Source: a virus. From it: DNA of 20,955 nucleotides. Below the pieces are notes generated by a model, which worked only from the letters and a program-made list of their open reading frames with translations, was not told where the DNA came from and searched no databases. The first letter of the stretch is position 1. Each line of letters begins with the position of its first letter. The stretch spans positions 1-20,955 of the IMG/VR virus record IMGVR_UViG_3300043466_003819; one strand, 5' to 3'. The translations under genes and the position numbers were made by a program. Shown here piece after piece: positions 1,741 to 18,902 of this stretch.

Positions 1741-1890
1741 ATGAAAACAATTCAAGTTACTCTCCAGGAGAGATGGGCAGCTTCCAAGCACCAGGTTCAC
1801 AAGTCGAAAAAATCCTACACCAGGAAAGACAAGCATAAGAAAAAGGGCTCCAATCAAGGCCCTTCCTTTTTATCTAAAGCTTTCCTTTAA
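1741..1890 (+). CDS. Small very basic protein, 49 aa
   Basis: ATG at 1741 starts MKTIQVTLQERWAASKHQVH and continues into a Lys/Arg/His-rich segment (KSKKSYTRKDKHKKKG). It lies 13 nt after the previous stop and shares its promoter at 1494. The charge suggests nucleic-acid or ribosome binding, but this is inference. The last 15 or so codons are unusual because they contain a terminator-type hairpin (1843-1864) and the stop codon lies inside the first unit of a hairpin repeat array. The functional coding end may therefore have been nearer residue 36, with the tail being read-through of RNA-level signals. Confidence 0.6.
   Translation: MKTIQVTLQERWAASKHQVHKSKKSYTRKDKHKKKGSNQGPSFLSKAFL
1843..1871. 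terminator. Bidirectional intrinsic terminator
   Basis: AAGGGC (1843-1848) pairs with GCCCTT (1859-1864). Plus-strand transcripts then meet TCCTTTTTA; minus-strand transcripts meet the complement of AAGAAAAA (1836-1843), a U run. It can end both the 1548-1890 operon and the opposing minus-strand RNA. Confidence 0.75.
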
Positions 1891-1956
1891 GTATAATATT
1901 TAGTTAAAGCTTTCCTTTAAGTTAAAGTAACAGTTTAAGTTAAAGCATCACTTTAA
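1874..1956 (-). repeat. Tandem TTAAAG-N5-CTTTAA inverted repeats
   Basis: Four units begin at 1874 (CTAAAG variant left arm at 1874-1879), 1904, 1922 and 1940; the last three are exactly 18 nt apart. Each has arms TTAAAG and CTTTAA around 5 nt; the third has one mismatch (GTTTAA). As DNA they could be operators or iterons. As minus-strand RNA they form a string of hairpins. Confidence 0.75.
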
Positions 1957-2072
1957 GTAGTTATAAAACAGTAGTAGGTATTACTAACTACCAGGCAAGG
2001 CCTACCCTCCAGTCTACTCTTCCGACTCTCTTTCAAAGCCAGGCCCCTTATAATATTCCTTTCTAATGTACC

Positions 2073-2103
2073 TAAAGATACGAACTATATCTTTGTTAGG
2101 CAA
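2073..2103 (-). promoter_or_regulatory. Minus-strand promoter
   Basis: On the complement, TTG (2103-2101), exactly 20 nt, then TATCTTTA (2080-2073) followed by GGTACATTAG. The TTG is preceded by a run of A and G (AAAAAAGTTGCC) as in the plus-strand promoters. It diverges from the promoter at 2157. Confidence 0.8.
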
Positions 2104-4634: not shown

Positions 4635-4642
4635 AGAAAAAG

Positions 4643-4673
4643 TTGCTCAATTGAATTAATGTTCTTATCTTTA
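4643..4673 (+). promoter_or_regulatory. Bacteroidota-type promoter for 4702-4995
   Basis: TTG 4643-4645, 20-nt spacer, TATCTTTA 4666-4673, then GGTATCAATAATTAAAAC. Confidence 0.85.
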
Positions 4674-4701
4674 GGTATCAATAATTAAAACATATAACAT
4701 C

Positions 4702-4995
4702 ATGGCTAAAAAAACTTACAAGGACACAGACGGAACGTCATTTCGTGGAATTACAATTCAAGCTTCAGTTGATCAATTAACAAAAGCTTTTGGGGAACCT
4801 GAGAATAATAATACGGGTGAGGACAAAGTAAATTTCGTATGGGATATGGAAACTGAGGATGGAGAAGTATTTACAATTTACGATTGGAAAGAGGGTCGTC
4901 CATTGAGATCGGATGAATTTGTAACGTGGCATATCGGAGCTAAAAGTGAATCAGATTCGAGAATTGCTCAAAGAGAATTACTAAAAGCCCTTTAA
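4702..4995 (+). CDS. Conserved small phage protein, 97 aa
   Basis: Starts MAKKTYKDTDGTSFRGITI after the leader. The core LTKAFGEPENNNTGEDKVNF, then FVWDMETEDGEVFTIYDWKEG and VTWHIGAKSES, matches a widespread phage family with the pattern 'lekaFGeP...DKv...W...dG.vftIYDWKe......w.HIG'. It has no known function (recalled, not searched). It is a small alpha/beta protein with no membrane segment. A 7-bp hairpin AAGCCCT/AGGGCTT (4985-5004) spans its stop codon and lies directly before the tRNA-like gene at 5011. Readthrough into the tRNA region is plausible because the hairpin lacks a T run. Confidence 0.8.
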   Translation: MAKKTYKDTDGTSFRGITIQASVDQLTKAFGEPENNNTGEDKVNFVWDMETEDGEVFTIYDWKEGRPLRSDEFVTWHIGAKSESDSRIAQRELLKAL

Positions 4996-5004
4996 TCAGG
5001 GCTT
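4985..5004 (+). terminator. Stop-codon hairpin before tRNA-like gene
   Basis: AAGCCCT (4985-4991) pairs with AGGGCTT (4998-5004), loop TTAATC. It is followed by ATAAATAG rather than T, so it may be a 3'-end or processing signal more than an intrinsic terminator. TATAAATA at 5004-5011 resembles the T4 late-promoter motif. Confidence 0.45.
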
Positions 5005-5010
5005 ATAAAT

Positions 5011-5144
5011 AGTCAGGTGGCGGAATGGTAGACGCTAAGAAGTTGGTTTATAGTTTCTCAAACAATGCGATGTTGTTTGAAACCAAGACACTTTAGGTGT
5101 AGAAAAATTTGAAACATACAGGTTCGAATCCTGTCCTAACTACA
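5011..5144 (+). tRNA. tRNA-Leu-like gene with about 45 extra nt in the anticodon region
   Basis: Acceptor arm AGTCAGG (5011-5017) pairs with CCTAACT (5135-5141), 6 of 7. The D arm GCG...CGC (5020-5035), with the GGTAGA loop, is typical of tRNA-Leu. The T arm ACAGG-TTCGAAT-CCTGT (5118-5134) is perfect. At about 132 nt it is some 45 nt longer than a tRNA-Leu. The excess lies between the D and T arms and forms a hairpin: TTGGTTT/AAACCAA outer (5043-5049 with 5080-5086) and TCAAACAA/TTGTTTGA inner (5058-5065 with 5073-5080). CTAA (5035-5038) could pair with TTAG (5093-5096) as an anticodon stem. I cannot fix an anticodon. It may be an intron-bearing tRNA, a non-canonical tRNA-like RNA or a decayed gene. 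Confidence 0.5.
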
Positions 5145-5164
5145 AACAATTAAAACTAAAAACT

Positions 5165-5257
5165 ATGGAACACGCTTATTATTGGGTATCTACATTTTTA
5201 CAACTAATTATGATTATCATTTTAGGTGGAATTTATGAAAATGTAAAAAAAAAATAA
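5165..5257 (+). CDS. 30-aa single-helix membrane microprotein
   Basis: ATG at 5165 follows AACAATTAAAACTAAAAACT, which resembles the leader used by most genes here. The product begins MEHAYYWVSTFLQLIMIIIL and ends in a basic tail NVKKK. It has one membrane helix (residues 5-22). The ORF lies exactly between the two tRNA-Leu-like sequences (20 nt after the first, 5 nt before the second). It may simply have arrived with a duplication of the tRNA, or it may be a real small membrane protein. It is short enough that chance is possible. Confidence 0.45.
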   Translation: MEHAYYWVSTFLQLIMIIILGGIYENVKKK

Positions 5258-5262
5258 AAAAC

Positions 5263-5342
5263 AGTCAGGTGGCGGAATTGGGTCAAGCTATGGTACTTTT
5301 TAACAATACTTAAGCATACAGGTTCGAATCCTGTCCTGACTA
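5263..5342 (+). tRNA. Second tRNA-Leu-like sequence, possibly degenerate
   Basis: Acceptor arm AGTCAGG (5263-5269) pairs perfectly with CCTGACT (5335-5341). The T arm ACAGG-TTCGAAT-CCTGT (5318-5334) is perfect and identical to the first copy. The D arm is weaker (GC/GC, 5272-5273 with 5287-5288). GTACT/AATAC (5293-5297 with 5305-5309, one mismatch) gives a 7-nt loop TTTTAAC. Read literally, the anticodon would be TTA, which matches the stop codon UAA. The long variable arm of tRNA-Leu is missing. It is either an atypical or suppressor-like tRNA or, more likely, a decayed duplicate. Confidence 0.45.
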
Positions 5343-5374
5343 CAAAAATAAATTAAAAAAAGTTACTAAAATAG

Positions 5375-5405
5375 TTGCCTCATAAAATTAATGTTCTTAT
5401 CTTTA
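5375..5405 (+). promoter_or_regulatory. Bacteroidota-type promoter for 5434-6219
   Basis: TTG 5375-5377, 20-nt spacer, TATCTTTA 5398-5405, then GGTATCAATAATTAAAAC. Confidence 0.85.
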
Positions 5406-5433
5406 GGTATCAATAATTAAAACATATAACATT

Positions 5434-6219
5434 ATGACAAGAGTTCAAATTTTAGAGAAAAAAGTTGAAGTATTAGTTTCAGAAAAACAATCTATAGCAT
5501 CTCAAAGATATGCTTGTAGAGAGAGATTTGAAAAAGCTTTAACAAGAGGATTTAATAGATACTTCAGAGGAATTGTTTCTGAGGATATTAGAATTGAATG
5601 TACTCAAACAGGAATTTACTTCAAGAAAATGAATGAAGAAGGTTCCTATGAGAAAGAATTATTTAGTATTTATCTTAAGGAGACTTATTTTTCTATAGAA
5701 AAAAGAGAGGAAATGTTTCGTGGTTGTGAATTATCTTACTATACAACCTCTTCTAATTCAGATTGGGAATTAGAGAGATTAACAAATTTGGGTAGAGTTG
5801 CTCAAGTATTAAAAGATTTTAAAGATGAAGTTGTAAATCAAGCAAATGAATTAGCAAAGATTTATAATGCTGAAATGGAAATAGAAAAGTTTTATGAGAG
5901 AGAATCTTTAGTTGAAAAGCAAATCTCAGAAATTAGATCTCAAATCAAAGCTTTTGAAAAAGAGAGAATAGTATTTGATTTAAAGAATGAAGGAATTACT
6001 TTTGATGTAGGTTGTAATATTCAATTGAAGTGGAATTATGCTCCTAGAATTGTAAGTTTAAAATTAATTGACTTTTCTAAATCAGGGAAGAAAGCTACAG
6101 CAATCTTTGAATGGGAGAGAGGGAGAGAGTCTAGAGAAGAAAATGTAAATGTTGATTCTATTATTGATCAAGTATTAGGATTTGCTAAAAATATTACTCA
6201 GTCCGTTTTAGCTGAGTAG
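5434..6219 (+). CDS. Hypothetical coiled-coil protein, 261 aa
   Basis: Starts MTRVQILEKKVEVLVSEKQS, a heptad-like helix over about residues 1-40. A mixed middle region carries FNRYFRGIVSEDIRIECTQ and FSIYLKETYFSIEKREEMF. A second long Glu/Lys/Gln-rich helical stretch follows (about 125-180, ending SEIRSQIKAFEKERIVFDL), then a beta-rich C-terminus (IQLKWNYAPRIVSLKLIDF). There is no catalytic motif, signal peptide or membrane helix. It is the largest gene of the promoter-per-gene block and is transcribed alone. A terminator-like hairpin (6196-6217) overlaps its last codons. Structural or scaffold-like roles fit the coiled coil but are only guesses. Confidence 0.75.
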   Translation: MTRVQILEKKVEVLVSEKQSIASQRYACRERFEKALTRGFNRYFRGIVSEDIRIECTQTGIYFKKMNEEGSYEKELFSIYLKETYFSIEKREEMFRGCELSYYTTSSNSDWELERLTNLGRVAQVLKDFKDEVVNQANELAKIYNAEMEIEKFYERESLVEKQISEIRSQIKAFEKERIVFDLKNEGITFDVGCNIQLKWNYAPRIVSLKLIDFSKSGKKATAIFEWERGRESREENVNVDSIIDQVLGFAKNITQSVLAE

Positions 6220-6225
6220 TTTTAA
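6196..6225 (+). terminator. Terminator at end of 5434-6219
   Basis: ACTCAG (6196-6201) pairs with CTGAGT (6212-6217), 10-nt loop, followed by AGTTTTAATTGTT. The hairpin includes the first base of the stop codon. Confidence 0.55.
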
Positions 6226-6308
6226 TTGTTGATACGAAGAGAGCTGCTATGAAAATAGCGGCTTTCCTAGGTGACCGCTAGGTCGGTTTTTAATTATTGA
6301 TATTGGAG

Positions 6309-6342
6309 CCTCTCTATTAATTTAGAGGGGTTTTCCTTTTTT
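6309..6342 (+). terminator. Intrinsic terminator in RNA-rich gap
   Basis: CCTCTCTA (6309-6316) pairs with TAGAGGGG (6323-6330, one G-U), followed by TTTTCCTTTTTT. Confidence 0.65.
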
Positions 6343-6370
6343 CTTGCTATTTATATATGTAATGACAATA

Positions 6371-6522
6371 GATTGGAGTCTTAGTCTTAACAGAGCATAT
6401 AGTTGGATACAGAGGATTATTTCCTTATATTTATTTTAGATTACTATTCTCTTTAGTGTGCACTCCAATCCACTTAAGAGATAATCATAAAGAGCTTCTC
6501 TTAATTGAGAGGCTCTTTTTTT
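6371..6522 (+). ncRNA. Candidate small RNA with long-range helix and terminator
   Basis: GATTGGAGT (6371-6379) and ACTCCAATC (6462-6470) form a perfect 9-bp helix enclosing 82 nt. A strong terminator follows (AGAGCTTCTC/GAGAGGCTCT, 6491-6516, then a T run to 6522). This is the layout of a terminated structured RNA. I see no clear -33/-7 pair upstream, so it may be processed from the preceding transcript. Confidence 0.45.
6491..6522 (+). terminator. Strong intrinsic terminator
   Basis: AGAGCTTCTC (6491-6500), loop TTAATT, GAGAGGCTCT (6507-6516) with one G-U pair, then TTTTTTT. This is the best terminator in the gap. Confidence 0.8.
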
Positions 6523-6784
6523 ATATGCCTTATTGTCTTATGACGATAATCCTTTAAGGCGTCTAATCCTTATAAAATCCATCTGATGGGACTTCGATTG
6601 TAATCTGAAAAGGATCAATCACCTTACCTAGACGAAGCAGCTAGGATAGGAGCTAGGTGAGAAGGGTGCTTTGGCTCACAAGAGTATGTTACATCAAACA
6701 TCAGGACAGTACCATGAAAAAGGAAGTAATGGGAATTAAAATCTTTATATGTATACTTATGTTTAATAATTAAAATAAAATAAT

Positions 6785-6988
6785 ATGGCTGGAAAATATT
6801 CTAAGATAAAATGGATGAGTAATCAAACCTTTGGAGACTATAACTTAGATAGAACTATCAAAACAGATAACTTATCTAAATCTCAGCTGGAAAGATATTT
6901 GAAGAAGAAAAGGTTAGAATCCCAGAGAAGGGAAGAAGAATTAAGAGAACCTAGAGTAAAAAGAAATGGTAAAATAATTAAAAAATAG
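6785..6988 (+). CDS. Small basic helical protein, 67 aa
   Basis: Starts MAGKYSKIKWMSNQTFGDYN. From about residue 30 it is an uninterrupted Lys/Arg/Glu-rich helix (SQLERYLKKKRLESQRREEE) ending in KRNGKIIKK. There is no membrane segment. It may bind nucleic acid, which is inferred only from its charge. Upstream is TTTAATAATTAAAATAAAAT, a relic or variant of the common leader, without a convincing -33/-7 pair, so transcription may come from the RNA-rich gap. Its stop TAG merges with the next promoter's -33 region (TAGTTGCC). Confidence 0.7.
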   Translation: MAGKYSKIKWMSNQTFGDYNLDRTIKTDNLSKSQLERYLKKKRLESQRREEELREPRVKRNGKIIKK

Positions 6989-7019
6989 TTGCCTCCTATT
7001 ATCTTTCTTCTTATCTTTA
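6989..7019 (+). promoter_or_regulatory. Bacteroidota-type promoter for 7048-7242
   Basis: TTG 6989-6991, 20-nt spacer, TATCTTTA 7012-7019, then GGTATCAATAATTAAAAC. The TTG is 1 nt after the previous gene's stop codon. Confidence 0.85.
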
Positions 7020-7047
7020 GGTATCAATAATTAAAACATATAAAACT

Positions 7048-7242
7048 ATGATGGACGTTAACTACTTTTTAGATCAAGCACAGAATTCTTATCAACATGA
7101 ATTCAACGAAGATTGGGCAGATGTTATAATGGAGATGACAGATGACTTTACAATGTTAATAACAGAAGATGGTTATGCAATGACTATCGACTGGACTACA
7201 GAAGGAGAATTTAATGGTTATAATTCTCACAATAATAGTTAA
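7048..7242 (+). CDS. Small acidic protein, 64 aa
   Basis: Two adjacent ATGs (7048 and 7051) are possible starts; both keep MDVNYFLDQAQNSYQHEFN. The protein is strongly acidic (NEDWADVIMEMTDDFTMLIT, EDGYAMTIDW) and short, without membrane helices. Small acidic phage proteins often mimic DNA or bind host regulators, but nothing here shows that. It is monocistronic, between two standard promoter cassettes. Function unknown. Confidence 0.7.
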   Translation: MMDVNYFLDQAQNSYQHEFNEDWADVIMEMTDDFTMLITEDGYAMTIDWTTEGEFNGYNSHNNS

Positions 7243-7250
7243 TAAAAAAG

Positions 7251-7281
7251 TTGCCTCACAAAGATAAAGTTCTTATCTTTA
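7251..7281 (+). promoter_or_regulatory. Orphan promoter cassette
   Basis: TTG 7251-7253, 20-nt spacer, TATCTTTA 7274-7281, then GGTATTAATAATTAAAAAT, i.e. a full cassette. Downstream there is no real gene: ATG at 7309 gives only MSELEKG then TAG. The transcript would end at the hairpin at 7389-7411, about 120 nt. Confidence 0.75.
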
Positions 7282-7287
7282 GGTATT

Positions 7288-7411
7288 AATAATTAAAAAT
7301 AAAGTGTTATGAGTGAATTAGAAAAGGGTTAGTAATATTTAGTGGAGAAAAAAGGGAGGAGAAAATAATTGTTATGAAAAAAAAAGTTAGCAGATTAGTT
7401 GCTAGTCTGCT
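7288..7411 (+). pseudogene. Short transcript or gene remnant after orphan promoter
   Basis: The reading frame opening at 7309 (MSELEKG) is closed by TAG TAA after seven codons; in the same frame YLVEKKGRRK follows and stops again. A second ATG at 7374 gives MKKKVSRLVASLLSFSYL (18 aa) running through the terminator and next promoter, which is unlikely to be a gene. The cassette therefore drives either a decayed gene, a seven-residue leader peptide or a non-coding RNA. Confidence 0.45.
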
Positions 7412-7418
7412 TTCTTTT
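7389..7418 (+). terminator. Terminator with the next -33 TTG as its loop
   Basis: AGCAGATTAG (7389-7398) pairs with CTAGTCTGCT (7402-7411), ten pairs with one G-U, followed by TTCTTTTTC. The three-base loop is TTG (7399-7401), the -33 element of the next promoter. Confidence 0.85.
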
Positions 7419-7429
7419 TCTTATCTTTA
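7399..7429 (+). promoter_or_regulatory. Bacteroidota-type promoter for 7458-7643
   Basis: TTG 7399-7401, 20-nt spacer, TATCTTTA 7422-7429, leader GGTATCAATAATTAAAAC. Its -33 element forms the loop of a 10-bp terminator stem. Confidence 0.85.
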
Positions 7430-7457
7430 GGTATCAATAATTAAAACAAACAATATT

Positions 7458-7643
7458 ATGACACAGGTTATTCAAAAAGGAGGTTCTATCGGAACAACTA
7501 ACAAAGTAGTTAAGGAATTTGAAAATCATGAAGAAGCAAAAGCATATGCTAAGCTAAGAAGATCTTATCTATCTCCAGGAGAAAAGAATTATTACGGTAT
7601 GTCTTATACTGTAAAAAAGATTAAAAAAAAGTTGCTTAATTAA
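7458..7643 (+). CDS. Hypothetical protein, 61 aa
   Basis: Starts MTQVIQKGGSIGTTNKVVKE. The middle segment FENHEEAKAYAKLRRSYLSP looks like the 'F....eA..ya..r...LspgEk.yYgmsY.v' layout of small phage proteins built as one helix packed on a beta hairpin, ending YYGMSYTVKKIKKK. It is basic at the C-terminus. The last codons (KKLLN) are encoded by the A-run and TTG of the next promoter, so gene end and promoter overlap. Function unknown. Confidence 0.75.
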   Translation: MTQVIQKGGSIGTTNKVVKEFENHEEAKAYAKLRRSYLSPGEKNYYGMSYTVKKIKKKLLN

Positions 7644-7662
7644 ATCCAATTTCTTATCTTTA
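7632..7662 (+). promoter_or_regulatory. Bacteroidota-type promoter for 7691-8041
   Basis: TTG 7632-7634 (inside the preceding coding end), 20-nt spacer, TATCTTTA 7655-7662, then GGTATTAATAATTAAAAC. Confidence 0.85.
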
Positions 7663-7690
7663 GGTATTAATAATTAAAACATATAAAATC

Positions 7691-8041
7691 ATGACAAAAG
7701 ATCAAACATTAGTAGCATTAGGAAATCAATTAGATTCATTCTATTCTTTACAACAAGTAATTGATATTGTAAAAAATATTGAAGTAGGTCCAAGTAGAAA
7801 GATTACAGTTACAGATATTCAAAGAGCAATTGACAATGTAGTTGATATTTTTGAAAGAAACACAGAAGATGTAGTTGAATACACAAATGTTGAATTCAAG
7901 ATTAGCTATGATAATAGAATTGAAGTAGAGAGTGTTAGATTGAGTATGGATTCTATCAGAGAAATACTTGAGAACAACTTTATGGATTTTGGTGAAGTTG
8001 AAGTAGAAGTTAAAGAAGAAAAAGAAGAAAATGAATTATAA
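7691..8041 (+). CDS. Hypothetical acidic protein, 116 aa
   Basis: Starts MTKDQTLVALGNQLDSFYSL. Residues 1-60 look helical (LQQVIDIVKNIE, TVTDIQRAIDNVVDIFER), followed by beta-type segments (NVEFKISYDNRIEVESVRLS), one helix (MDSIREILENNF) and a Glu-rich tail VEVEVKEEKEENEL. It has no cysteines, membrane helices or recognised motif. Monocistronic, with its own promoter and a UUCG-type hairpin after it. Function unknown. Confidence 0.75.
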   Translation: MTKDQTLVALGNQLDSFYSLQQVIDIVKNIEVGPSRKITVTDIQRAIDNVVDIFERNTEDVVEYTNVEFKISYDNRIEVESVRLSMDSIREILENNFMDFGEVEVEVKEEKEENEL

Positions 8042-8047
8042 ATAAAG

Positions 8048-8078
8048 TTGCCTCTTCGGAGGCTTCTTCTTATCTTTA
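8048..8078 (+). promoter_or_regulatory. Promoter with UUCG hairpin in spacer, for 8107-8763
   Basis: TTG 8048-8050, 20-nt spacer, TATCTTTA 8071-8078. GCCTC (8050-8054)-TTCG-GAGGC (8059-8063), then TTCTTCTTAT, is the probable terminator of the preceding gene and occupies the spacer. Confidence 0.85.
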
Positions 8079-8106
8079 GGTATCAATAATTAAAACAATA
8101 TAAACT

Positions 8107-8379
8107 ATGTCAAATTTATTATCAACAGCAAAAAATTTATTAAAAGATCAGGCAATTGAATTGTATGATATCTATGCAGAAGATATTCCTTTAAAGAAAG
8201 AAGACTACAGAAGTCATTATGCTAATCTAGGAGAACGATTATTTGAAATTGATTCAATTAATTTATTCTCAGAATTAATCGCTAAGCTTGAATCTAATTC
8301 CTTTTCTGAATTAGGTTATGATTCTGATGATGAAGATTTATTAGAAGAGTTTTTAGAAAAAGTGAAGAAATCTCAGTAA
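8107..8379 (+). CDS. Hypothetical protein, 90 aa
   Basis: Starts MSNLLSTAKNLLKDQAIELY. It is predominantly helical and acidic, with a DSDDEDLLEEFLEKVKK C-terminus. There is no membrane helix or motif. It is first gene of a three-gene transcript (8107, 8381 and 8611) with a 1-nt gap to the next start (TAATATG). Function unknown. Confidence 0.75.
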   Translation: MSNLLSTAKNLLKDQAIELYDIYAEDIPLKKEDYRSHYANLGERLFEIDSINLFSELIAKLESNSFSELGYDSDDEDLLEEFLEKVKKSQ

Positions 8380-8380
8380 T

Positions 8381-8614
8381 ATGTCATACGAGAGAAATAT
8401 AAAAGGAACATGGAAAGGAAAGGAGAGGAAGGTGTCTAAGCCTTCTTCTCCGATGATAGGGGTAGTGTATAAGGGGGTAGGTAAATCCTGTGGTAGGGAA
8501 GAGGTAGGAGTCTTAGTAGAGATGTTTGATCAGAACGATGAAGCAATCCTTAGAACAAAAGAAAATAAATTAATCTCAGTAGATAAAAGATCATTAAAAG
8601 CAATCACAGTATGA
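8381..8614 (+). CDS. Hypothetical basic protein, 77 aa
   Basis: Starts MSYERNIKGTWKGKERKVSK. After a basic N-terminus, the segments MIGVVYKGVGKSCGREEVGV and EAILRTKENKLISVDKRSLK suggest a small all-beta, SH3-like fold, but the match is loose. It is translationally coupled to the previous gene (1-nt gap) and overlaps the next by ATGA at 8611-8614. Local GC is higher than in its neighbours (GGAAAGG-type runs), which may indicate a different origin. Function unknown. Confidence 0.7.
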   Translation: MSYERNIKGTWKGKERKVSKPSSPMIGVVYKGVGKSCGREEVGVLVEMFDQNDEAILRTKENKLISVDKRSLKAITV

Positions 8615-8763
8615 AAGAACAAATATTAAATGAACTTACAGCAACAATGAATCGTCTAATGACTACAGAAGAGATCTTAGACTTCTTTGAAAACATATTA
8701 GGAGAGATGTCTGAGGATAGATTACAGAATATATTGGCAGAGGTAAGAGCTAACTATAATTAA
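8611..8763 (+). CDS. Small helical protein, 50 aa
   Basis: This short ORF starts in the ATGA overlap with the previous stop. The product MKEQILNELTATMNRLMTTE continues EILDFFENILGEMSEDRLQN and ends AEVRANYN, two amphipathic helices. Its tight coupling and clean end (TAA directly before AAAATAGTTGCC of the next promoter) support it as a real gene. It is of the size of small phage regulatory or anti-host proteins; no function can be assigned. Confidence 0.7.
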   Translation: MKEQILNELTATMNRLMTTEEILDFFENILGEMSEDRLQNILAEVRANYN

Positions 8764-8770
8764 AAAATAG

Positions 8771-8801
8771 TTGCCTCTTAGAATAATAGTTCTTATCTTT
8801 A
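8771..8801 (+). promoter_or_regulatory. Bacteroidota-type promoter for 8830-9012
   Basis: TTG 8771-8773, 20-nt spacer, TATCTTTA 8794-8801, leader GGTATCAATAATTAAAAC. Confidence 0.85.
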
Positions 8802-8829
8802 GGTATCAATAATTAAAACAATATAAATC

Positions 8830-9012
8830 ATGGAAGAAGTTAGAGAGTACTTTGCAAGCAATTATGGCCATATTGATCTTTGGTCTGTATCAGATGAGGA
8901 CATCACAGAGTTCTTAGAGAGAGTTTATTTAGAGGGTTTATCTTTTGAACAGAAGATGGATTGTTTTTGTGATTATTTAATGGCTAATCAGTTAGTTGAT
9001 TATGATGAATAG
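8830..9012 (+). CDS. Small acidic protein, 60 aa
   Basis: Starts MEEVREYFASNYGHIDLWSV. It is acidic and helical, with DEDITEFLERVYLEGLSFEQ and then MDCFCDYLMANQLVDYDE. Two cysteines (CFC) are close together. No motif is recognised. Monocistronic in the promoter-per-gene block. Confidence 0.7.
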   Translation: MEEVREYFASNYGHIDLWSVSDEDITEFLERVYLEGLSFEQKMDCFCDYLMANQLVDYDE

Positions 9013-9023
9013 TTAAAAAAAAG

Positions 9024-9054
9024 TTGCCTCTTCGGAGGCAATTTCTTATCTTTA
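9024..9054 (+). promoter_or_regulatory. Promoter with UUCG hairpin in spacer, for 9083-9346
   Basis: TTG 9024-9026, 20-nt spacer, TATCTTTA 9047-9054. TTGCCTC-TTCG-GAGGCAA (9024-9041) is the same terminator-like hairpin as at 3175-3192, and it includes the TTG. Confidence 0.85.
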
Positions 9055-9082
9055 GGTATCAATAATTAAAACAAGATACAAT

Positions 9083-9346
9083 ATGACAAGAGAACAATTT
9101 CTATCAGGAGTGAGCTTTAGAGTAAAAGGAGTTACTTACAAAGGAGCAAGGACTTTTTACTATGATGGATGTATAATGAAACAATCTAGATCTACTATAG
9201 ATGAGAGAGTAATCTACCAAGACTATCATGCCAATGTGATTAAGGTAGGAAGGGTTGGCTTTACAGCTTTTAGCTTTGTAATGAATAAGAAAGTAGTAGT
9301 TAAATATAGGTTTGAAGACTTAGTAGAATTTAAAGAGGAGGCTTAG
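9083..9346 (+). CDS. Hypothetical protein, 87 aa
   Basis: Starts MTREQFLSGVSFRVKGVTYK. It looks all-beta with repeated short strands (GARTFYYDGCIMKQSRSTID, VIKVGRVGFTAFSFVMNKKV, VVKYRFEDLVEF). There is no membrane helix or recognised motif. It is the last gene of the promoter-per-gene block, and its stop codon lies in the loop of a strong terminator hairpin (9338-9351 plus a T run). Function unknown. Confidence 0.75.
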   Translation: MTREQFLSGVSFRVKGVTYKGARTFYYDGCIMKQSRSTIDERVIYQDYHANVIKVGRVGFTAFSFVMNKKVVVKYRFEDLVEFKEEA

Positions 9347-9360
9347 GCCTCTTTTTTTTT
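9338..9360 (+). terminator. Intrinsic terminator closing the promoter-per-gene block
   Basis: GAGGC (9338-9342), loop TTAG containing the stop codon, GCCTC (9347-9351), then nine T. Confidence 0.85.
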
Positions 9361-9799
9361 ACCTGTAGGTCAAGGTGATGTCAAGGTGAGGGCAAGGTTA
9401 GAGAACACTGCTAGTTTATTTCCCTCAAACGGGTTCGCCGTCGGGTTCCTGCGCCACATAGAGAAGTATATTTCTGATGAAAATTGAGGTATGGGGGTAT
9501 ATATTTATATATACTATATAGCTTTAAGAAAGATGTTGTTATGGTTACTTTCCTTCCCTAGATCTCTCCAAGGCTAATTTCCCCAAGTTGTCCTCCTTCT
9601 CAAGTTTGGTCTATATAGCTGCTAAACCCTAGCACGGTTACCACCTATACCCCTTATCCTACCTCTATTGTTGTACTACTATGTGTTTATTTCTTATATT
9701 TAATATAGAACATTTCGTTTAATTTTCCAACTACCCCAGGATTTTTTTCCGGAAAATTTTTCGTTATATGAACATTATATATTTATATAAAAGAATAAT
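9361..9799. other. 440-bp gap without a gene
   Basis: No ORF of note on either strand. It contains CAAGGT at 9371, 9382 and 9393 (three copies, 11 nt apart), a relatively GC-rich patch around 9430-9462 (ACGGGTTCGCCGTCGGGTTC), a pyrimidine-rich stretch (9550-9660), a palindrome TTTTCCGGAAAA near 9745-9756, and a possible promoter at 9671-9702. I see no tRNA or clear structured RNA. Confidence 0.5.
9671..9702 (+). promoter_or_regulatory. Possible promoter for 9800-10225
   Basis: TTG 9671-9673, 21-nt spacer, TATATTTA 9695-9702. The spacer is one longer than usual and the standard leader is missing, so this is weaker than the others; the 5' UTR would be about 90 nt. Confidence 0.4.
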
Positions 9800-10225
9800 A
9801 TGAAAAAACTAGATACAAACCAACTCTTTAATATATTCCAGATGGGAGATGAAGAAGTGTACAGAGAACACCAAGTGGAGGATGTATTGGATAATTGTTT
9901 TGTACTCTTTGGTATGGTGGTTAAGGGTGTCGAGAATTACTACATAATTGATCAGTTATACCAAAAGAAGTATGGAGAACAGTATGACTGCGTAAGGGTA
10001 TCTATCAAACTAAAGTACTTTATAGGACTTGTGAGATACCTTGAGAGAATTAAGGAGATACCGGAAGATACATTACATATTATAGTAGATGAATTCGGAT
10101 TACAGGCTATAGTTTATGCTTTACAGCAAATGCTCGACCTATTTATAGAGGAGGAGTATTATGAAAAATGTACTACTATTACTAAATTTCAACAACTTTT
10201 TTCACTAAATCAGTTGGTAGAGTAA
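9800..10225 (+). CDS. Hypothetical protein, 141 aa
   Basis: Starts MKKLDTNQLFNIFQMGDEEV after an AT-rich leader (TATATAAAAGAATAAT). It is helical and moderately acidic throughout, with amphipathic segments LKYFIGLVRYLERIKEIPED and IVYALQQMLDLFIEEEYYEK. There is no signal peptide; hydrophobic stretches are too short for membrane helices. It is separated from its neighbours by its own possible promoter upstream and a clear promoter overlapping its 3' end. No family recognised. Confidence 0.75.
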   Translation: MKKLDTNQLFNIFQMGDEEVYREHQVEDVLDNCFVLFGMVVKGVENYYIIDQLYQKKYGEQYDCVRVSIKLKYFIGLVRYLERIKEIPEDTLHIIVDEFGLQAIVYALQQMLDLFIEEEYYEKCTTITKFQQLFSLNQLVE

Positions 10226-10244
10226 ATATAATTTCATATCTTTA
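10214..10244 (+). promoter_or_regulatory. Bacteroidota-type promoter for 10270-11115
   Basis: TTG 10214-10216 (inside the 3' end of the previous gene), 20-nt spacer, TATCTTTA 10237-10244. The leader differs from the standard one and contains TATAAATA (10254-10261). Confidence 0.75.
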
Positions 10245-10269
10245 TGTATAATTTATAAATAAAAAGGTT

Positions 10270-10467
10270 ATGGAGGAATTAATTTTAAGTATTTTACTAC
10301 AGTATTTACTGGTAGGTCTTATTTGTGCAGTATTTATAGACTTTTCCATTAGGGTATTTCGATCAAGTAATCCTTTTACTTTTCTTGAAATATTAATAAC
10401 AATACTAACATGGCCCATCATTGTGGGGAGTTTCTTACAGTCTTTTTTTCAAGATTTTTTCAACTAA
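10270..10467 (+). CDS. Small membrane protein, 65 aa
   Basis: Starts MEELILSILLQYLLVGLICA. Two hydrophobic segments at about residues 4-24 and 38-58 (FLEILITILTWPIIVGSFLQ), separated by a basic turn (SIRVFRSSNPF), predict a helical hairpin in the membrane. Its size and topology would allow a holin or exclusion role, but there is no endolysin next to it. It shares a transcript with the GIY-YIG-like gene 16 nt downstream. Confidence 0.75.
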   Translation: MEELILSILLQYLLVGLICAVFIDFSIRVFRSSNPFTFLEILITILTWPIIVGSFLQSFFQDFFN

Positions 10468-10482
10468 AAAACACAGACAGTT

Positions 10483-11115
10483 ATGTATAGAGATAAAATA
10501 AGCCTTCCCCAGGCCAAAGCCCTAGAATTAACAGGAGAGATTACAATTGTTGATTCTTCACCAGAATCTGTTTTGGCCTACCCCAAGGTAGGAAAGAAGT
10601 GGAAAGAGAACTACATTACACTACAATCTAAATATAGACATATATCTCCAGAAAAACTCCTTACCTTCCTATCGGCAAAATACCTTATAGAAGCACCTGA
10701 AGGATTAGTAGATGAAAATACCAATACATATTCCTGGAGATATTTCCATGGTGTGGAGAATTCTAAGATAAAAGAGAAATCTGTAGATAATATCGAATAT
10801 GTATATATCCTTGTGAATCCCGCCTACCCCTCTCTGGTTAAGGTAGGAATGACCATTCATGATGTTAATAGGAGAGTCACGTCGATAAACGCTACAGCCA
10901 CGGTTGAGGAATGGGTTCCAAAATTTGCTCTTCCTGTAAGGAAGGGTACGGCTATGAAAGTGGAAAAAGCCGTTCATAAACATTTTAGTTCTTCTAGGGT
11001 TTCCTCCGATAGGGGAGGTTCTAGAGAGTTTTTCAAAGTTACTCCTTTTGAGGCTTTTGATAAGATTCGTGAGGTAGGTGCATTATTCCAAGTGGGAGAA
11101 CCTGTTATTTATTAA
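10483..11115 (+). CDS. GIY-YIG superfamily protein with T5orf172-type domain, 210 aa
   Basis: The C-terminal half (about residues 105-190) reads YVYILVNPAYPSLVKVGMT, then NRRVTSINATATVEEW, KVEKAVHKHFSS and a REFFKV strand. That is the order of the T5orf172/Mug113 branch of GIY-YIG nucleases: paired Y-x-Y/V-G motif, Arg130-131, Glu161, His165, and the 'EFF' strand. The first 100 residues (KALELTGEITIVDSS, HISPEKLLTFLSAKYLIE) are of unknown type and may be a targeting domain. Family members are predicted DNA endonucleases; some phage copies are free-standing homing enzymes. No intron or split gene is visible beside it, so a free-standing or anti-competitor role is as likely. Activity is inferred. 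Confidence 0.8.
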   Translation: MYRDKISLPQAKALELTGEITIVDSSPESVLAYPKVGKKWKENYITLQSKYRHISPEKLLTFLSAKYLIEAPEGLVDENTNTYSWRYFHGVENSKIKEKSVDNIEYVYILVNPAYPSLVKVGMTIHDVNRRVTSINATATVEEWVPKFALPVRKGTAMKVEKAVHKHFSSSRVSSDRGGSREFFKVTPFEAFDKIREVGALFQVGEPVIY

Positions 11116-11201
11116 AGTTTATCTCGGAAGAACTGGGAGAGTTTTTAGGATATATATGTAAATCTTGCGCGGTGATTCTATAGAGATAATTGTTATTTTA
11201 G

Positions 11202-11232
11202 TTGCCTCTTTCCTTTTTTCTTCGTATATTTA
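11202..11232 (+). promoter_or_regulatory. Bacteroidota-type promoter for 11255-11908
   Basis: TTG 11202-11204, 20-nt spacer, TATATTTA 11225-11232, then GGTACAATCAAAAAATAA. Its form is closest to the promoter at 1494. Confidence 0.8.
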
Positions 11233-11254
11233 GGTACAATCAAAAAATAATGTT

Positions 11255-11908
11255 ATGAAACAGTTGAAAAATTTATTTCTTTTATTACTTTCTTTATTCG
11301 TTTTTAGTTGTTCTACTTCTGAATTAGACCAGAATGTATGTCTGAATGGAGATTGTTATGCTGAATTTTGGGTTGATACTATGGGACATCCTGGTACTTA
11401 TCAAGACGGGCAAGGGGTTTGGCATATAAAACATGTAGGGTTAAACTACTTTACAGTCAAAGGGCGGTTATCTCCTTTAGATCCTCATTACGTGGTTAAT
11501 AATATTCCCTTAGTTATTACTTCTTTTGATTCTAACTTTTTCTACCTACCAGGTAACGTAGTATGGACCTACCCTGTCTATTCGTACTTAGGACTGTGGT
11601 CAAGTAATCAGATGAATACTCCTATACCTATCGGTACTCAAACCTATACCTTTCCTCAACTCTCACAGCAGACCACCATTATGAATTTAGCAGGATATAC
11701 AATTCAACCCCATACGGACTTTTATGCCAATCAATCAGTATTACAGTCATATTTTAGTACTAATTCCAGATATACGTATACTCCTCAACAATCTATGGTT
11801 TTCTTTCCAGATTTTATAGGACAATCAGCAACTATCTACATTAATATCACTTTCGGAGAGAATAAAGAAACAGTATTAAAGGAGTTAAAAGTAGTATTTG
11901 AGCAGTAG
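11255..11908 (+). CDS. Predicted phage-encoded lipoprotein, 217 aa
   Basis: The N-terminus MKQLKNLFLLLLSLFVFSCS is a lipoprotein signal peptide: basic start, hydrophobic core, lipobox VFSC with Cys19 as the lipidated residue. The mature part is beta-rich and aromatic (GDCYAEFWVDTMG, VWHIKHVGLNYFTVKGRL, YPVYSYLGLWSS, YTFPQLSQQTTIM). A further Cys pair (VCLNGDC) follows the lipobox region. It should sit on the inner face of the outer membrane or on the surface. Phage lipoproteins commonly block reinfection by masking receptors or DNA entry, so superinfection exclusion is a reasonable but unproven idea. It has its own promoter. No family recognised. Confidence 0.8.
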   Translation: MKQLKNLFLLLLSLFVFSCSTSELDQNVCLNGDCYAEFWVDTMGHPGTYQDGQGVWHIKHVGLNYFTVKGRLSPLDPHYVVNNIPLVITSFDSNFFYLPGNVVWTYPVYSYLGLWSSNQMNTPIPIGTQTYTFPQLSQQTTIMNLAGYTIQPHTDFYANQSVLQSYFSTNSRYTYTPQQSMVFFPDFIGQSATIYINITFGENKETVLKELKVVFEQ

Positions 11909-11953
11909 AGTTGCTTCTTTAAAAAAAAGTTCATAACTTAACTATTAATAAAT

Positions 11954-12012
11954 AATTAATAAAATAATAATTAATAAAATAATAATTAATAAAATAATAA
12001 TTAAAAATAAAT
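11954..12012. repeat. AT-only 15-bp tandem repeat upstream of late operon
   Basis: Three perfect 15-bp units AATTAATAAAATAAT at 11954, 11969 and 11984, then a degenerate fourth. The stretch 11946-12035 is almost pure A/T and ends at the first gene of the operon containing the late sigma factor, where a promoter is expected; no -33/-7 pair of the usual type is visible. Confidence 0.8.
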
Positions 12013-12035
12013 AATATTAATATAAAATAAAAAAA

Positions 12036-12209
12036 ATGAGAAACAAGGATTTATTTCAACAGAAATTAGAGCGTTTTGAAGCAGAGGTTAAGAAAATGGG
12101 GTACCTTATCCACAAAAATGAACAGGATGTAGCTTATGATAAAGTTGAAGAGCTTTTAGAAAAAATAAGTGATATGCAAACATTATTAAATACAGAGCAT
12201 CAAGACTAA
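12036..12209 (+). CDS. Small coiled-coil protein, 57 aa
   Basis: ATG at 12036 follows an A-rich leader. The product begins MRNKDLFQQKLERFEAEVKK and continues to DKVEELLEKISDMQTLLN, two charged amphipathic helices likely to pair as a hairpin or dimer. Its stop overlaps the next start (TAATG at 12207-12211), so it is the first gene of the late-type operon and coupled to the HD-domain gene. I recall similar small proteins in T4-like phage genomes near late-transcription genes, but cannot name a function. Confidence 0.75.
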   Translation: MRNKDLFQQKLERFEAEVKKMGYLIHKNEQDVAYDKVEELLEKISDMQTLLNTEHQD

Positions 12210-12946
12210 TGAATCTTTCGGCAGAACAGTTACAGAGTAATTGGGATAGGCATCTAAAAATATTAGATACTTTTATTACAGGAGATCGTAAAGAGAAGTT
12301 AAAATCTCTATATGAGTCTTTAGCAGAAGAAATGATACTTGCTCCTGCCTCCGGTAAACCTTCCTTCCATAATGCCTTCCCGGGAGGGTATATTGAACAT
12401 GTTAACCGAGTTGTTCATTGTGCTTTTAAGACAAAAGAGTTATGGGAAACTATGGGAGCTAATATAGATTTTACAGAGGAAGAATTAGTATTTACTGCTC
12501 TTAATCACGACTTAGGTAAAATAGGGTTCAAGGGGAAGCCTAATTACTTACCTCAAACGGATGCCTGGAGAAAGGATAAGTTAGGAGAAGAATATATTCA
12601 TAATAAGGATTTATCTTTTATGCTTATTCAAGATCGCTCCCTCTTTATTCTTCAGCAAAACGGTATAGCTATGAATGAAAAAGAGTATCTAGCTATAAAA
12701 TTACATGACGGATTATATGATGATGTAAATAAACCTTACTATATATCATTCAATCCAGATTCTAAATTTAGAACAAATCTAGTATATATCTTACACCAGG
12801 CAGACTTTTTAGCCTCTAAAGTAGAATATGATACTTGGAAATCTTTAGGAGGAACTTCTAAACCTAAGGTAGAGAAAACAGTTTCCTCAACAGGTAAAAA
12901 AATAAATGGATCCCAAGGATTAATGGGGTTAGTAAAAGATATATAG
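12209..12946 (+). CDS. HD-domain phosphohydrolase, 245 aa
   Basis: The HD signature is visible in order: a His in FPGGYIEHVNRVVHCA (His64), the paired His100-Asp101 in LNHDLGKIG, His166 in IKLHDGLYDD, and HQADFLASKVEYD with Asp199. This set can bind one or two metal ions, as in HD-superfamily phosphohydrolases of nucleotides or cyclic nucleotides. The conserved FHNAFPGGYIEHVNRV lead-in is what I recall from T4-like phages of Bacteroidota. Residues after about 215 are a low-complexity Lys/Ser tail. Possible substrates include nucleotides or a host signalling nucleotide; neither can be chosen from sequence. It shares one base with the previous stop and lies 1 nt before the next gene. Confidence 0.85.
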   Translation: MNLSAEQLQSNWDRHLKILDTFITGDRKEKLKSLYESLAEEMILAPASGKPSFHNAFPGGYIEHVNRVVHCAFKTKELWETMGANIDFTEEELVFTALNHDLGKIGFKGKPNYLPQTDAWRKDKLGEEYIHNKDLSFMLIQDRSLFILQQNGIAMNEKEYLAIKLHDGLYDDVNKPYYISFNPDSKFRTNLVYILHQADFLASKVEYDTWKSLGGTSKPKVEKTVSSTGKKINGSQGLMGLVKDI

Positions 12947-12947
12947 T

Positions 12948-13247
12948 ATGATAACATTATCAGTTATTTTAGGAGTATTAGTATTAGTATTAGTATTCGG
13001 ATATACGACCTGGAACCTACACCGTAAGGTGATAAGACAAGAGGATATCATAGAATACCAAGTAGGTTATTTAAGAAAGGTTGCGTATCTTATTAGTGAA
13101 TCAAAAATTTATGTTGAACAATTAGATGAGAAAGGCACTTTTAGATCTGATGATGAAGTCGGAGTTTTCTTTAACTTTATGAAAGAAATACAAGACACTA
13201 TAAATGCCTACCGTCTCCCAGAAGATTATGGCAAAACCGCAAAATAA
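12948..13247 (+). CDS. Single-pass membrane protein with acidic cytoplasmic part, 99 aa
   Basis: The start is 1 nt after the previous stop. The product begins MITLSVILGVLVLVLVFGYT, an N-terminal membrane helix (residues 3-23), followed by basic residues (NLHRKVIRQ) that favour a cytoplasmic C-terminal part. The remainder is helical and acidic with a DEKGTFRSDDEVGVFFNFMK motif. That pattern ('GsFesDDEvGffF..lk.iq') recurs, to my memory, in T4-like marine phages next to gene 55, with no known function. Its last 20 bases overlap the sigma-factor start. Confidence 0.75.
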   Translation: MITLSVILGVLVLVLVFGYTTWNLHRKVIRQEDIIEYQVGYLRKVAYLISESKIYVEQLDEKGTFRSDDEVGVFFNFMKEIQDTINAYRLPEDYGKTAK

Positions 13248-13926
13248 AGACAATTATTACTTTACACAAGAAACAGAGGATGCAATAGTAAGATATAACG
13301 CATCCTCTAATCCTGTTTTACGAGATAAGATATTTCAACAAGAAATATATTTCCCTCTTTATAAGTTAGCAGAAAATATTATTCATACTTTTAAATTCTA
13401 CTACTTAGATGTAAATAGTATAGAGGATTTAAAACTAGATGTAGTAAGTATGTTAGTAGAAGAAAAATTACATAGATTTGACTCAACTAACGGGGCTAAA
13501 GCGTTTTCATACTTTCAGACAATAGTAAAGAGGTGGCTTATTAATTACAATAATAAGAATTATAAGAAATTAAAACAAGTAGGATCTTTTGAAGAGATGG
13601 AAGATTCTTATGAAGTAGAAGGTTTACTGGATTCTGAAAGAACAATACCTCTAGCGACAATAGTGAATTACTTTGTTGAAAGTAGTTACAAAAATATGGT
13701 AGAAATCTTCCCTAAAGAGCAGGATCAGAGAGTAGCAGATGCCATACTAACCCTATTTAAAACACGTCATGATTTAGAGATCTTCAGAAAAAAAGCTCTA
13801 TACATCTATATAAGAGAGATGACTGATTGTGAAACTCCTACACTTACAAGGGTACTATCTAGACTAAAAGAAGAGTTTTATAAAATATATAAAACCTACC
13901 AAGATGTAGGATTTACTATTCTATAA
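13228..13926 (+). CDS. 55: T4 gp55-like late-transcription sigma factor, 232 aa
   Basis: I choose ATG 13228 (MAKPQNKDNYYF) over the in-frame ATG at 13204, because the family N-terminus begins with the YYFTQETEDAIVRYN segment. Signature parts are LYKLAENIIHTFKFYYLDV, then LHRFDSTNGAKAFSYFQTIV and KRWLINYNNKNYKKLKQVG, which correspond to the sigma region 2-like core of T4 gp55. In T4 this protein binds host RNA polymerase with gp33 and the sliding clamp and directs late promoters (family knowledge). It is longer than T4 gp55 (185 aa), with a divergent C-terminus (about 125-232) that could hold the clamp or promoter contacts. It sits directly before the structural genes, as expected. Late promoter sequence in this phage is unknown. 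Confidence 0.85.
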   Translation: MAKPQNKDNYYFTQETEDAIVRYNASSNPVLRDKIFQQEIYFPLYKLAENIIHTFKFYYLDVNSIEDLKLDVVSMLVEEKLHRFDSTNGAKAFSYFQTIVKRWLINYNNKNYKKLKQVGSFEEMEDSYEVEGLLDSERTIPLATIVNYFVESSYKNMVEIFPKEQDQRVADAILTLFKTRHDLEIFRKKALYIYIREMTDCETPTLTRVLSRLKEEFYKIYKTYQDVGFTIL

Positions 13927-13959
13927 TATATCTTTCGATATTTATATAATAAATAGACT

Positions 13960-14310
13960 ATGGGATTAGATACAACAATTTTCGGGAAAAAGACAGTCTC
14001 TGATGTATTAAAAGAGATTTACGATAATTCTAAAAATAAAGAAAAGCAAATAAACGCTCTTATTGGAGAATTGAAACCTCTTGTTGAGAACATAGGAGAT
14101 GCAACTTTAGTTGTTCCTATGATTAAAGAGTATTTAGAGGTAGGAGTAAAGAATGATGAGCATCTTATTAAAATGGTAGCACTTGTTCAAAGACTTGAAA
14201 GTGGAGGGAAAGGGTCTGAAGCAGACTTCTTCAACCCAGAAGAGCTTGCAAAGCTAATGGAACAGAGTGAAGAGCTAGGAAAACAAATAGATAAAAAAGA
14301 CGAAGAGTAA
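13960..14310 (+). CDS. Hypothetical helical protein between late sigma factor and baseplate genes, 116 aa
   Basis: Starts MGLDTTIFGKKTVSDVLKEI. The pattern ELKPLVENIGDATLVVPMIK, EYLEVGVKNDEHLIKMVALV and ADFFNPEELAKLMEQSEELG matches, from memory, a conserved T4-like phage protein encoded beside gene 55 and the baseplate hub. It is entirely helical and has no membrane segment. It may be a small virion or assembly protein. Its stop TAATG overlaps the next start. The 33-nt space before it (TATCTTTCGATATTTATATA) is one of the few gaps in the operon and could hold an internal promoter. Confidence 0.75.
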   Translation: MGLDTTIFGKKTVSDVLKEIYDNSKNKEKQINALIGELKPLVENIGDATLVVPMIKEYLEVGVKNDEHLIKMVALVQRLESGGKGSEADFFNPEELAKLMEQSEELGKQIDKKDEE

Positions 14311-15464
14311 TGGCTGGAAGTTATTTTCTAGGGAACACTATAAACAGTGCTGCAAGAGGTAGTACATCCACACCTTTTAATAAATCATCTACGATTTATG
14401 GAAGAGTTCTTGATATAGTATTAGATAATAGTAAAATATTAGATGATACTCAGGGAAATAAATTACCTATAGGAGCTATTATATACCAAGACATAAACAC
14501 ACCAGCTGATCCTACAGGTATTAGTACTTTTGCTCTACCTTCTACAAATAGTGTAAAACAATTTCCACTTATTAATGAGATAGTAATTATACAAACAGGT
14601 CCTTCACCAGATTTTCAAGAAAATACAAGTCAGGTACTAAACTACTACTCTTCAGTGGTAAATATTTGGGGATCTCCACATCATAATGCTCTCCCAACAC
14701 AAGGAGTAGATTTTCAATTCCCTATAGGACAAGGAATCCCTGAATTAAAAGATATAAACCCTTTATTTCCATTCCCAGGGGATGTTTTAATAGAAGGAAG
14801 ACAGGGGCAATCAATTAGGATAGGAGGGTATTCATCAAAAGAAAATCCTATTACAAATAGTAGCAATAATGGACAGCCGTTTATTGTTATAAGTAACGGA
14901 CAAATTAAAACCACTAATGGAATAGATTATATCGTAGAAGATATAAATAAAGATTCTAATTCCATATATTTTCTCTCAAATCATAAAGTACCATTAAAAT
15001 CTGCAAACTCTAAAAGAAAATCATACGATACTGAACCTAAAACCTCAGATCAATATAAAGGAAATCAAGTACTTATAAACGGAGGAAGGTTATATTTTAA
15101 TGCAAAAGAGGAAAGTGCTTATATTTCTGCAAAAGAATCTATAGGATTAAATGCAAAGACATTAAATTTTGATGCTACAGAGTATTTCTGTGTAGATGCT
15201 AAAAAAATTCTTCTAGGGGAGAAAGCAAGAACTGCTTCTCCAAGTGTACAGCAACCGGTAGTACTCGGTAGACAATTAGAAAACTGGTTAGGAGCATTAC
15301 TAGACTCACTATCCACTGTAGCAGATGCAATGTCAACAGCTTCTGCTATCGGAGCAGGCCCTGTTACTCAACTAAATACAACAGGTCCAGCTTTAAAAGC
15401 AACGGTACAGTCTTTAAAAGCACAGTTTAAGTTATTTCAATCCAAAAAAGTATTTACAGAATAA
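14310..15464 (+). CDS. gp5-like baseplate central spike protein without lysozyme domain, 384 aa
   Basis: The N-terminal third (SSTIYGRVLDIVLDNSKIL, LPIGAIIYQDI, FPLINEIVIIQTGP) has the OB-fold feel of T4 gp5 and VgrG hubs. LFPFPGDVLIEGRQGQSIRI at about residues 150-170 is the gp5-type segment leading into the spike. Repeated short strands then follow (KGNQVLINGGRLYFNAKEES, AYISAKESIGLNAKTLNFDA), as in the triple-stranded beta-helix. The T4 gp5 lysozyme domain is not present. The C-terminus (residues 320-384) is helical and Ala-rich. It should form the membrane-piercing trimer under the tail tube. It overlaps both neighbours by one base of TAATG. Confidence 0.75.
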   Translation: MAGSYFLGNTINSAARGSTSTPFNKSSTIYGRVLDIVLDNSKILDDTQGNKLPIGAIIYQDINTPADPTGISTFALPSTNSVKQFPLINEIVIIQTGPSPDFQENTSQVLNYYSSVVNIWGSPHHNALPTQGVDFQFPIGQGIPELKDINPLFPFPGDVLIEGRQGQSIRIGGYSSKENPITNSSNNGQPFIVISNGQIKTTNGIDYIVEDINKDSNSIYFLSNHKVPLKSANSKRKSYDTEPKTSDQYKGNQVLINGGRLYFNAKEESAYISAKESIGLNAKTLNFDATEYFCVDAKKILLGEKARTASPSVQQPVVLGRQLENWLGALLDSLSTVADAMSTASAIGAGPVTQLNTTGPALKATVQSLKAQFKLFQSKKVFTE

Positions 15465-16255
15465 TGGCAAGACTACCGCAAATATCAGGAATTATAGCAA
15501 GACAAGTAGGTAGTATACAGGGTAAAGTATCTGCACAAGTTCAAGATAGGGTTTTAGAGATATTATCAAAATTTACAAGCCAATGCCCTACAGGTAGAGA
15601 GTTGCAAAATATAATTAAACAGAGAGCTAACCTGCTAAAAGTAATAAACTCCTTTGAAAAAAGAATTACTCCACTGAAAGCAACAGCAGATAAGTTAAGT
15701 ATTGCAATAACAGCAGCAAGAGTACTTACACGTCTATTAAAAGCCACACCACTACCCACTACCCTAGGTACACCACCAGGCCCAGCAGGAGGAGTTATTT
15801 TTAGTTTAAGTGTAGGTAAGGTAGTCACAGTAGGAGATAGGTTAGCAACAATAAACAAAATACTCGATTCCCTAGAGGCAGATAAGGTAGGCATACTAGG
15901 AGTTGTAGATTCAGTCTCTTCTACATTAACTTCTTTAAAAAACAGACTAAATGCAATTGATCTAGCAATTCAAGAATGTAGTAAAGAATCCCCAGACCTA
16001 CCAGAAATACTAGCAACTACACAACCAAAAGAAAACACAGGTTCAGAAGGAACACCTGATGCAAATTACGAATATAAAGGATATACCCTAGCAATTATAC
16101 AAGATCCAAACTCACCTCAAATAGCACCAAGAAGGTATGCTGTAGCAAGAGATAGAAGAGGAATTGTAGTGTTAAAAGGGCAACCGTCTTTTAGTTCTTC
16201 TGTGGACGTATTATTAGATGAAATTAAATTTAGGATAGATAATCAATTAGCATAA
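15464..16255 (+). CDS. Virion structural protein, likely baseplate/tail, 263 aa
   Basis: Starts MARLPQISGIIARQVGSIQG. Residues 1-180 are mostly helical with heptad-like stretches (LLKVINSFEKRITPLKATAD, VSSTLTSLKNRLNAIDLAIQ) around a Pro/Gly-rich turn (TTLGTPPGPAGG). A conserved beta-type tail follows: YKGYTLAIIQDPNSPQIAPR, RYAVARDRRGIVVLKGQPSF and DVLLDEIKFRIDNQLA. I recall this tail from structural genes of T4-like marine phages. Its position between the spike and gp25-like genes fits a baseplate component. Exact role unknown. Confidence 0.75.
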   Translation: MARLPQISGIIARQVGSIQGKVSAQVQDRVLEILSKFTSQCPTGRELQNIIKQRANLLKVINSFEKRITPLKATADKLSIAITAARVLTRLLKATPLPTTLGTPPGPAGGVIFSLSVGKVVTVGDRLATINKILDSLEADKVGILGVVDSVSSTLTSLKNRLNAIDLAIQECSKESPDLPEILATTQPKENTGSEGTPDANYEYKGYTLAIIQDPNSPQIAPRRYAVARDRRGIVVLKGQPSFSSSVDVLLDEIKFRIDNQLA

Positions 16256-16272
16256 CATAACTATTTATTAAT

Positions 16273-18901: not shown

Positions 18902-18902
18902 T

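Follow-up and report, generated by a model that had tools for sequence, protein, structure and literature searches.

Small RNAs are known among phages as a kind of transcript; phage non-coding RNAs are, to our knowledge, rarely annotated. The trans-acting small RNAs of bacteria and phages have their own promoter, lie between genes, and occur as several diverged paralogous copies that keep one constant segment; most base-pairing small RNAs, as far as we know, are not conserved in sequence across distant phages. Two more specific precedents are the Racrs, phage-encoded RNA anti-CRISPRs that mimic CRISPR repeats (PMC10651486), and the put element of HK022, which works in cis on the transcript it is part of (PMC9378689).

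The stretch of DNA analysed as a whole, hereafter the window, is a 20,955-base IMG/VR virus record. The 160-kb Flavobacterium phage immuto matches it from 4636 to 20389 at 77% identity, with a coverage of 48%, and 14 loci from IMG/VR are syntenic with the window, giving a set of 15 sequences together with it. Positions 770-1460, some 700 nt with little coding content, contain numerous short ACCCGT-type repeats of approximately 10-nt period. A tRNA-like gene is located at 5263-5343 on the plus strand; its anticodon, UUA according to ARAGORN, would read the UAA stop, its anticodon stem contains a C-A mismatch, and no counterpart was found in a 32-kb stretch of immuto. Possibly this gene is a tRNA-Leu that has drifted.

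On its minus strand the window carries a predicted transcription unit (Table 1). A preliminary description had proposed that the only minus-strand promoter seen in this DNA reads through an ORF-free stretch into a terminator that works in both directions, and each of these elements was recovered. The promoter, which we take to be of the Bacteroidota -33/-7 type, has its TTG, its 20-nt spacer and its downstream box in place. Exact copies of TATCTTTAGGTA occur 13 times on the plus strand and once on the minus strand, as part of this promoter, which can be aligned to the phage promoters of the plus strand (89% over 55 nt for positions 7231-7285); the same box precedes the motif in all 15 syntenic sequences. 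Between 1838 and 2103 the minus strand contains no ORF of 50 aa or more. The terminator hairpin, flanked by T-rich tails on both strands as read from the sequence, lies inside the 3' end of the convergent gene. The predicted RNA has a length of about 230 nt. That gene had been drawn as 1548-1890, whereas the actual gene is the 49-aa ORF 1741-1890. Its product matches PF23876 with an E-value of 6e-4, which is below the cut-off, and is weakly DUF7230-like.

Table 1. Features of the minus-strand transcription unit and of the convergent gene in the window.
Feature	Position	Strand	Basis
Promoter: TTG (2103-2101), 20-nt spacer, TATCTTTA (2080-2073)	2073..2103	-	sequence
Conserved RNA core (covariance model R2)	1995..2048	-	matched by R2 with 50.5 bits and E 4.3e-13
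Hairpin P2 within the core, stem formed by 2040-2036 and 2028-2024	2024..2040	-	covariation
Invariant strand GGAAGAGUAGAC adjoining P2	2012..2023	-	conservation of 90% or more, up to invariance, over 75 sequences
Accessory array, four TTAAAG-N5-CTTTAA-like hairpins (1940-1956, 1922-1938, 1904-1920, 1874-1890)	1874..1956	-	pattern search
Hairpin of an intrinsic terminator for both directions, predicted to end the RNA and the mRNA that faces it	1843..1864	both	hairpin predicted on +
Convergent gene, 49-aa basic protein, 3' end overlapping the RNA tail	1741..1890	+	ORF; homologues in 14 relatives

The preliminary description had singled out a hairpin array in the 3' part of the RNA and overlooked a conserved core at its 5' end. 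Within the syntenic set, the minus strand contains a near-fixed stretch, GGGGCCUGG-N-CGGAAGAGUAGAC, next to which the array is variable. The core comprises about 50 bases, GGSC(CU)G followed by the hairpin P2 and by GGAAGAGUAGAC(UCC), and occurs in two types according to its 5' flank, RGCCUG-P2-C and GGGCG-P2; in both types GGAAGAGUAGAC comes next, mostly continued by UCCRNCCURC, and the copy of the window has drifted 3' of GAC. The covariance model R2 was built from 75 sequences, the window copy among them. In these aligned cores all five base pairs of P2 display compensatory changes, with a covariation of 0.664 compared with 0.255 (sd 0.025) after shuffling, and 100 cells changed on both sides compared with 35 in the shuffles. 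As related sequences inflate the shuffle test, more weight is given to the slid controls, in which the partner strand was moved by one to three columns and covariation did not exceed 0.238 in any of the six. The compensatory change in P2 thus goes beyond both kinds of control, and the other helices are unsupported: individual sequences such as L056 can plausibly form a closing stem, P1, and a small P3, but neither shows covariation in the aligned cores, and the two flanks pair only slightly better than permuted flanks (8/200). The strand 3' of P2 is uninformative on pairing because it is invariant. For the whole RNA of the window, folding was no better than for shuffled sequences (z -0.40), and energy is uninformative here. 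The proposal of the preliminary description that a structured RNA has a complete transcription unit here finds good support in conservation, in the position of the promoters and in covariation. In nine loci (L061, L062, L066, L072, L077, L079, L084, L116 and L168) the 3' strand of P2 reads TGCTATACACC, which resembles a promoter-like element found elsewhere in the same phages.

With search patterns that ignore genes, the core was found in at least about 150 stretches among the IMG/VR matches listed, representing at least 128 distinct sequences. Scanning for the core alone returned 22 stretches, a relaxed pattern 58 (three of them chance matches in GC-rich DNA), and the 3' half by itself at least 120, partly the same as in the other scans. 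The carrier contigs range from approximately 4 kb to 344 kb and are diverse, including immuto-type phages, Cbastvirus, elemo-like phages and contigs of more than 200 kb. Phages of the L052 type have a short stretch in common with elemo phages and no DNA match to immuto; the core was not found in the elemo record searched. Among cultured phages, immuto has one copy, Tenacibaculum phage Larrie two and a weak third, and Cellulophaga phages phiST and phi13:1 three each (weakest E 0.013). Copy number according to the model is one to five per phage, and near-exact sites reach about 13 on a 128-kb contig (G019, between 101.9 and 127.6 kb; loci L261 and L262 cover 100500-128170) and about eight on G010 (L263, L264). 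Most of these sites stand behind a promoter box and differ in their P2 sequence, and the copies are mostly directed against the genes. Tandem pairs of the RNA, each member with its own promoter box, are present at L036 5683-5867 and L057 401-606. In a 634-kb uncultured phage (LR745206.1; L246), a drifted look-alike with a TATCTTTA promoter, GGGCUG and UAGACUCCAACCUGC is located near position 3000; it was not recovered by the covariance model.

Model matches were found in one of 395 Bacteroidota genomes, three of them within 20 kb of one contig, using stricter filters by which weak matches could be lost. A 15-mer of the invariant strand occurs on either strand in three of the 395, and the one occurrence that looks genuine is in the same genome. 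Since matches are limited to 1/395 genomes, the core RNA is, on sequence evidence, not a common host RNA. The pattern scan of genomes gave six matches. The promoter and the neighbouring gene are present only at L089, which is a phage-like contig assigned to a bacterial bin; the other five look like chance. No further core was found in 380 genomes around this bin, and as these are mostly small, the bin probably belongs to a phylum other than that of the hosts. For carriers other than the named isolates, the promoter type suggests Bacteroidota as the host phylum.

A small basic protein with the motif VHKSKKxYxRKxKHK recurs in many carriers (window 1741-1890, L049, L143, L150, L170 and L237). Its gene is a direct neighbour of the RNA in the immuto group and in L150, and lies 1.3 to 5 kb from it in L049, L143, L170 and L237. 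Given the distance in the latter four loci, the 49-aa protein as the partner of the RNA is no more than an idea.

The copies resemble independent small RNA genes in having their own promoter, as judged by consensus match. A promoter box on the RNA strand precedes 83 of 125 copies by at most 65 nt, compared with approximately 10% of control windows; the box TA[TC]CTTT[GA] accounts for 42/125 (2% of controls) and was found once in 125 on the opposite strand, TGCTATAC being the exception with equal frequency on both strands. Seventy copies have clear neighbours and could be placed, and 65 of these are intergenic with respect to ORFs of at least 80 aa. In compact copies, with a predicted length of about 60 nt, a U-run follows the core, but over all copies a T5 run shortly 3' is not enriched (28/125 versus 20/108 control windows). 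In immuto, an annotated 32-aa hypothetical protein, gp146 (NC_055915.1 67454-67552; L093 1455-1553), overlaps the core on the opposite strand and is probably a spurious gene call.

We propose that these RNAs form a new phage-encoded family of small structured RNAs that act in trans, in which the invariant strand binds a partner that is itself conserved and is probably a protein of the host, and we give this reading a probability of roughly one half. P2 would serve as a scaffold that presents GGAAGAGUAGAC to the partner; a conserved partner is suggested because a fixed strand stands beside a helix that drifts while remaining paired, in phages that otherwise differ. A host protein, e.g. of transcription, RNA decay or defence, is favoured because the carriers differ widely while the strand hardly changes, and the RNA may recruit, sequester or mislead it. 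Additional copies, and tails such as the array of the window, could provide tuning. A bolder version, that a family present in unrelated phages of one phylum, in up to about 13 copies per genome, seizes or blocks a conserved host protein through its fixed strand, is put forward tentatively; if true, it would represent an RNA-based device for host takeover or counter-defence of a kind so far undescribed.

The invariant stretch is long and possibly single-stranded, and an own promoter together with several paralogous copies per phage resembles the trans-acting small RNAs, features that would suit a base-pairing RNA in which P2 is the scaffold and the invariant strand, GGAAGAGUAGACUCC, the seed for phage or host transcripts. 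The search for targets makes this the less probable reading, though one to be taken seriously: complementarity to one 16S and one 23S rRNA was no better than for shuffles, the rarity of the 15-mer in the Bacteroidota genomes argues against a conserved perfect host target, and the sites in carrier phages with at most one mismatch were the RNA copies themselves or lay among them. A host protein would be preferred over a base-paired target for two reasons: these comparisons revealed no complementary site that is conserved, and any target RNA would need the same degree of conservation from host to host.

The position directly after a promoter, and the 43 of 70 placed copies that are co-directional with both neighbours, would also fit a cis element of the nascent RNA, for instance an antiterminator of the put kind or a leader regulator, acting on its own transcript. 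Against this, 21 copies are opposite to both neighbours (the remaining six are divergent), as suits an independent unit better than a leader; the RNA of the window runs into a terminator, past which the genes have the opposite orientation; and the copy at 3827 of L265 (G012) has its own promoter and U-run, with a second promoter before the next gene. We regard a cis function as unlikely.

According to the preliminary description, the array could titrate an RNA-binding protein, or the RNA could act antisense to the 1548-1890 mRNA. The array is indeed non-random, with no shuffled window of 300 containing three units in 100 bp (mean of 0.46 hits); its four hairpins, three of them at 18-nt spacing, stand as described, but only two are exact TTAAAG-N5-CTTTAA and two carry one mismatch. 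The RNA tail and the 49-aa gene do overlap, at the 3' end of the latter, and the immuto group preserves this convergent layout. The array is not conserved with the RNA, however: immuto-type relatives have between zero and five units, the array is missing from L013, L019, L034, L036, L038 and L057, and it was not seen in those copies from other phages that were read, being confined to the phage group of the window. For these reasons the array is rejected as the function of the family, and the core, not the array, is by comparison of the copies what selection holds. The antisense placement is not general either, given the predominance of co-directional copies, and in the window the overlap involves the 3' tail only, so that both proposals appear improbable. 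Least probable of all is an element acting as DNA (a protein-binding site, an origin or a mobile repeat) with the RNA incidental, for although the 18-bp units are palindromic and some phages contain many dispersed copies, the promoter is placed strand-specifically (42/125 versus 1/125), and P2 diverges with its pairing kept, even between neighbouring copies in one genome.

At gathering scores, none of the 4227 Rfam 15 families searched matched the core; the tRNA at 5263-5342 was the sole match in the window, and in 23 carrier loci no family was found, the low-threshold matches being far below the cut-offs. Nothing relevant was found in the open-access literature on the core sequence or on phage RNA families. 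The family, its spread and its multiplicity therefore appear, as far as these searches reach, to be new. It is widespread, with a clear consensus and a hairpin supported by covariation, and its occurrence in the cultured phages immuto, Larrie, phiST and phi13:1 makes expression, partner and phenotype directly testable. Similar to the trans-acting small RNAs, the core copies are promoter-borne, intergenic, and diverged around a constant segment; they differ in that no target was found and in that the core sequence is conserved across distant phages. With the Racrs the core shares being a small non-coding RNA in viral genomes, whereas Racrs mimic CRISPR repeats (PMC10651486), and the parallel is a lead only. 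The put element of HK022 is likewise a phage RNA element of conserved structure near a promoter (PMC9378689), but the core copies often run against the genes beside them and can have a termination signal of their own.
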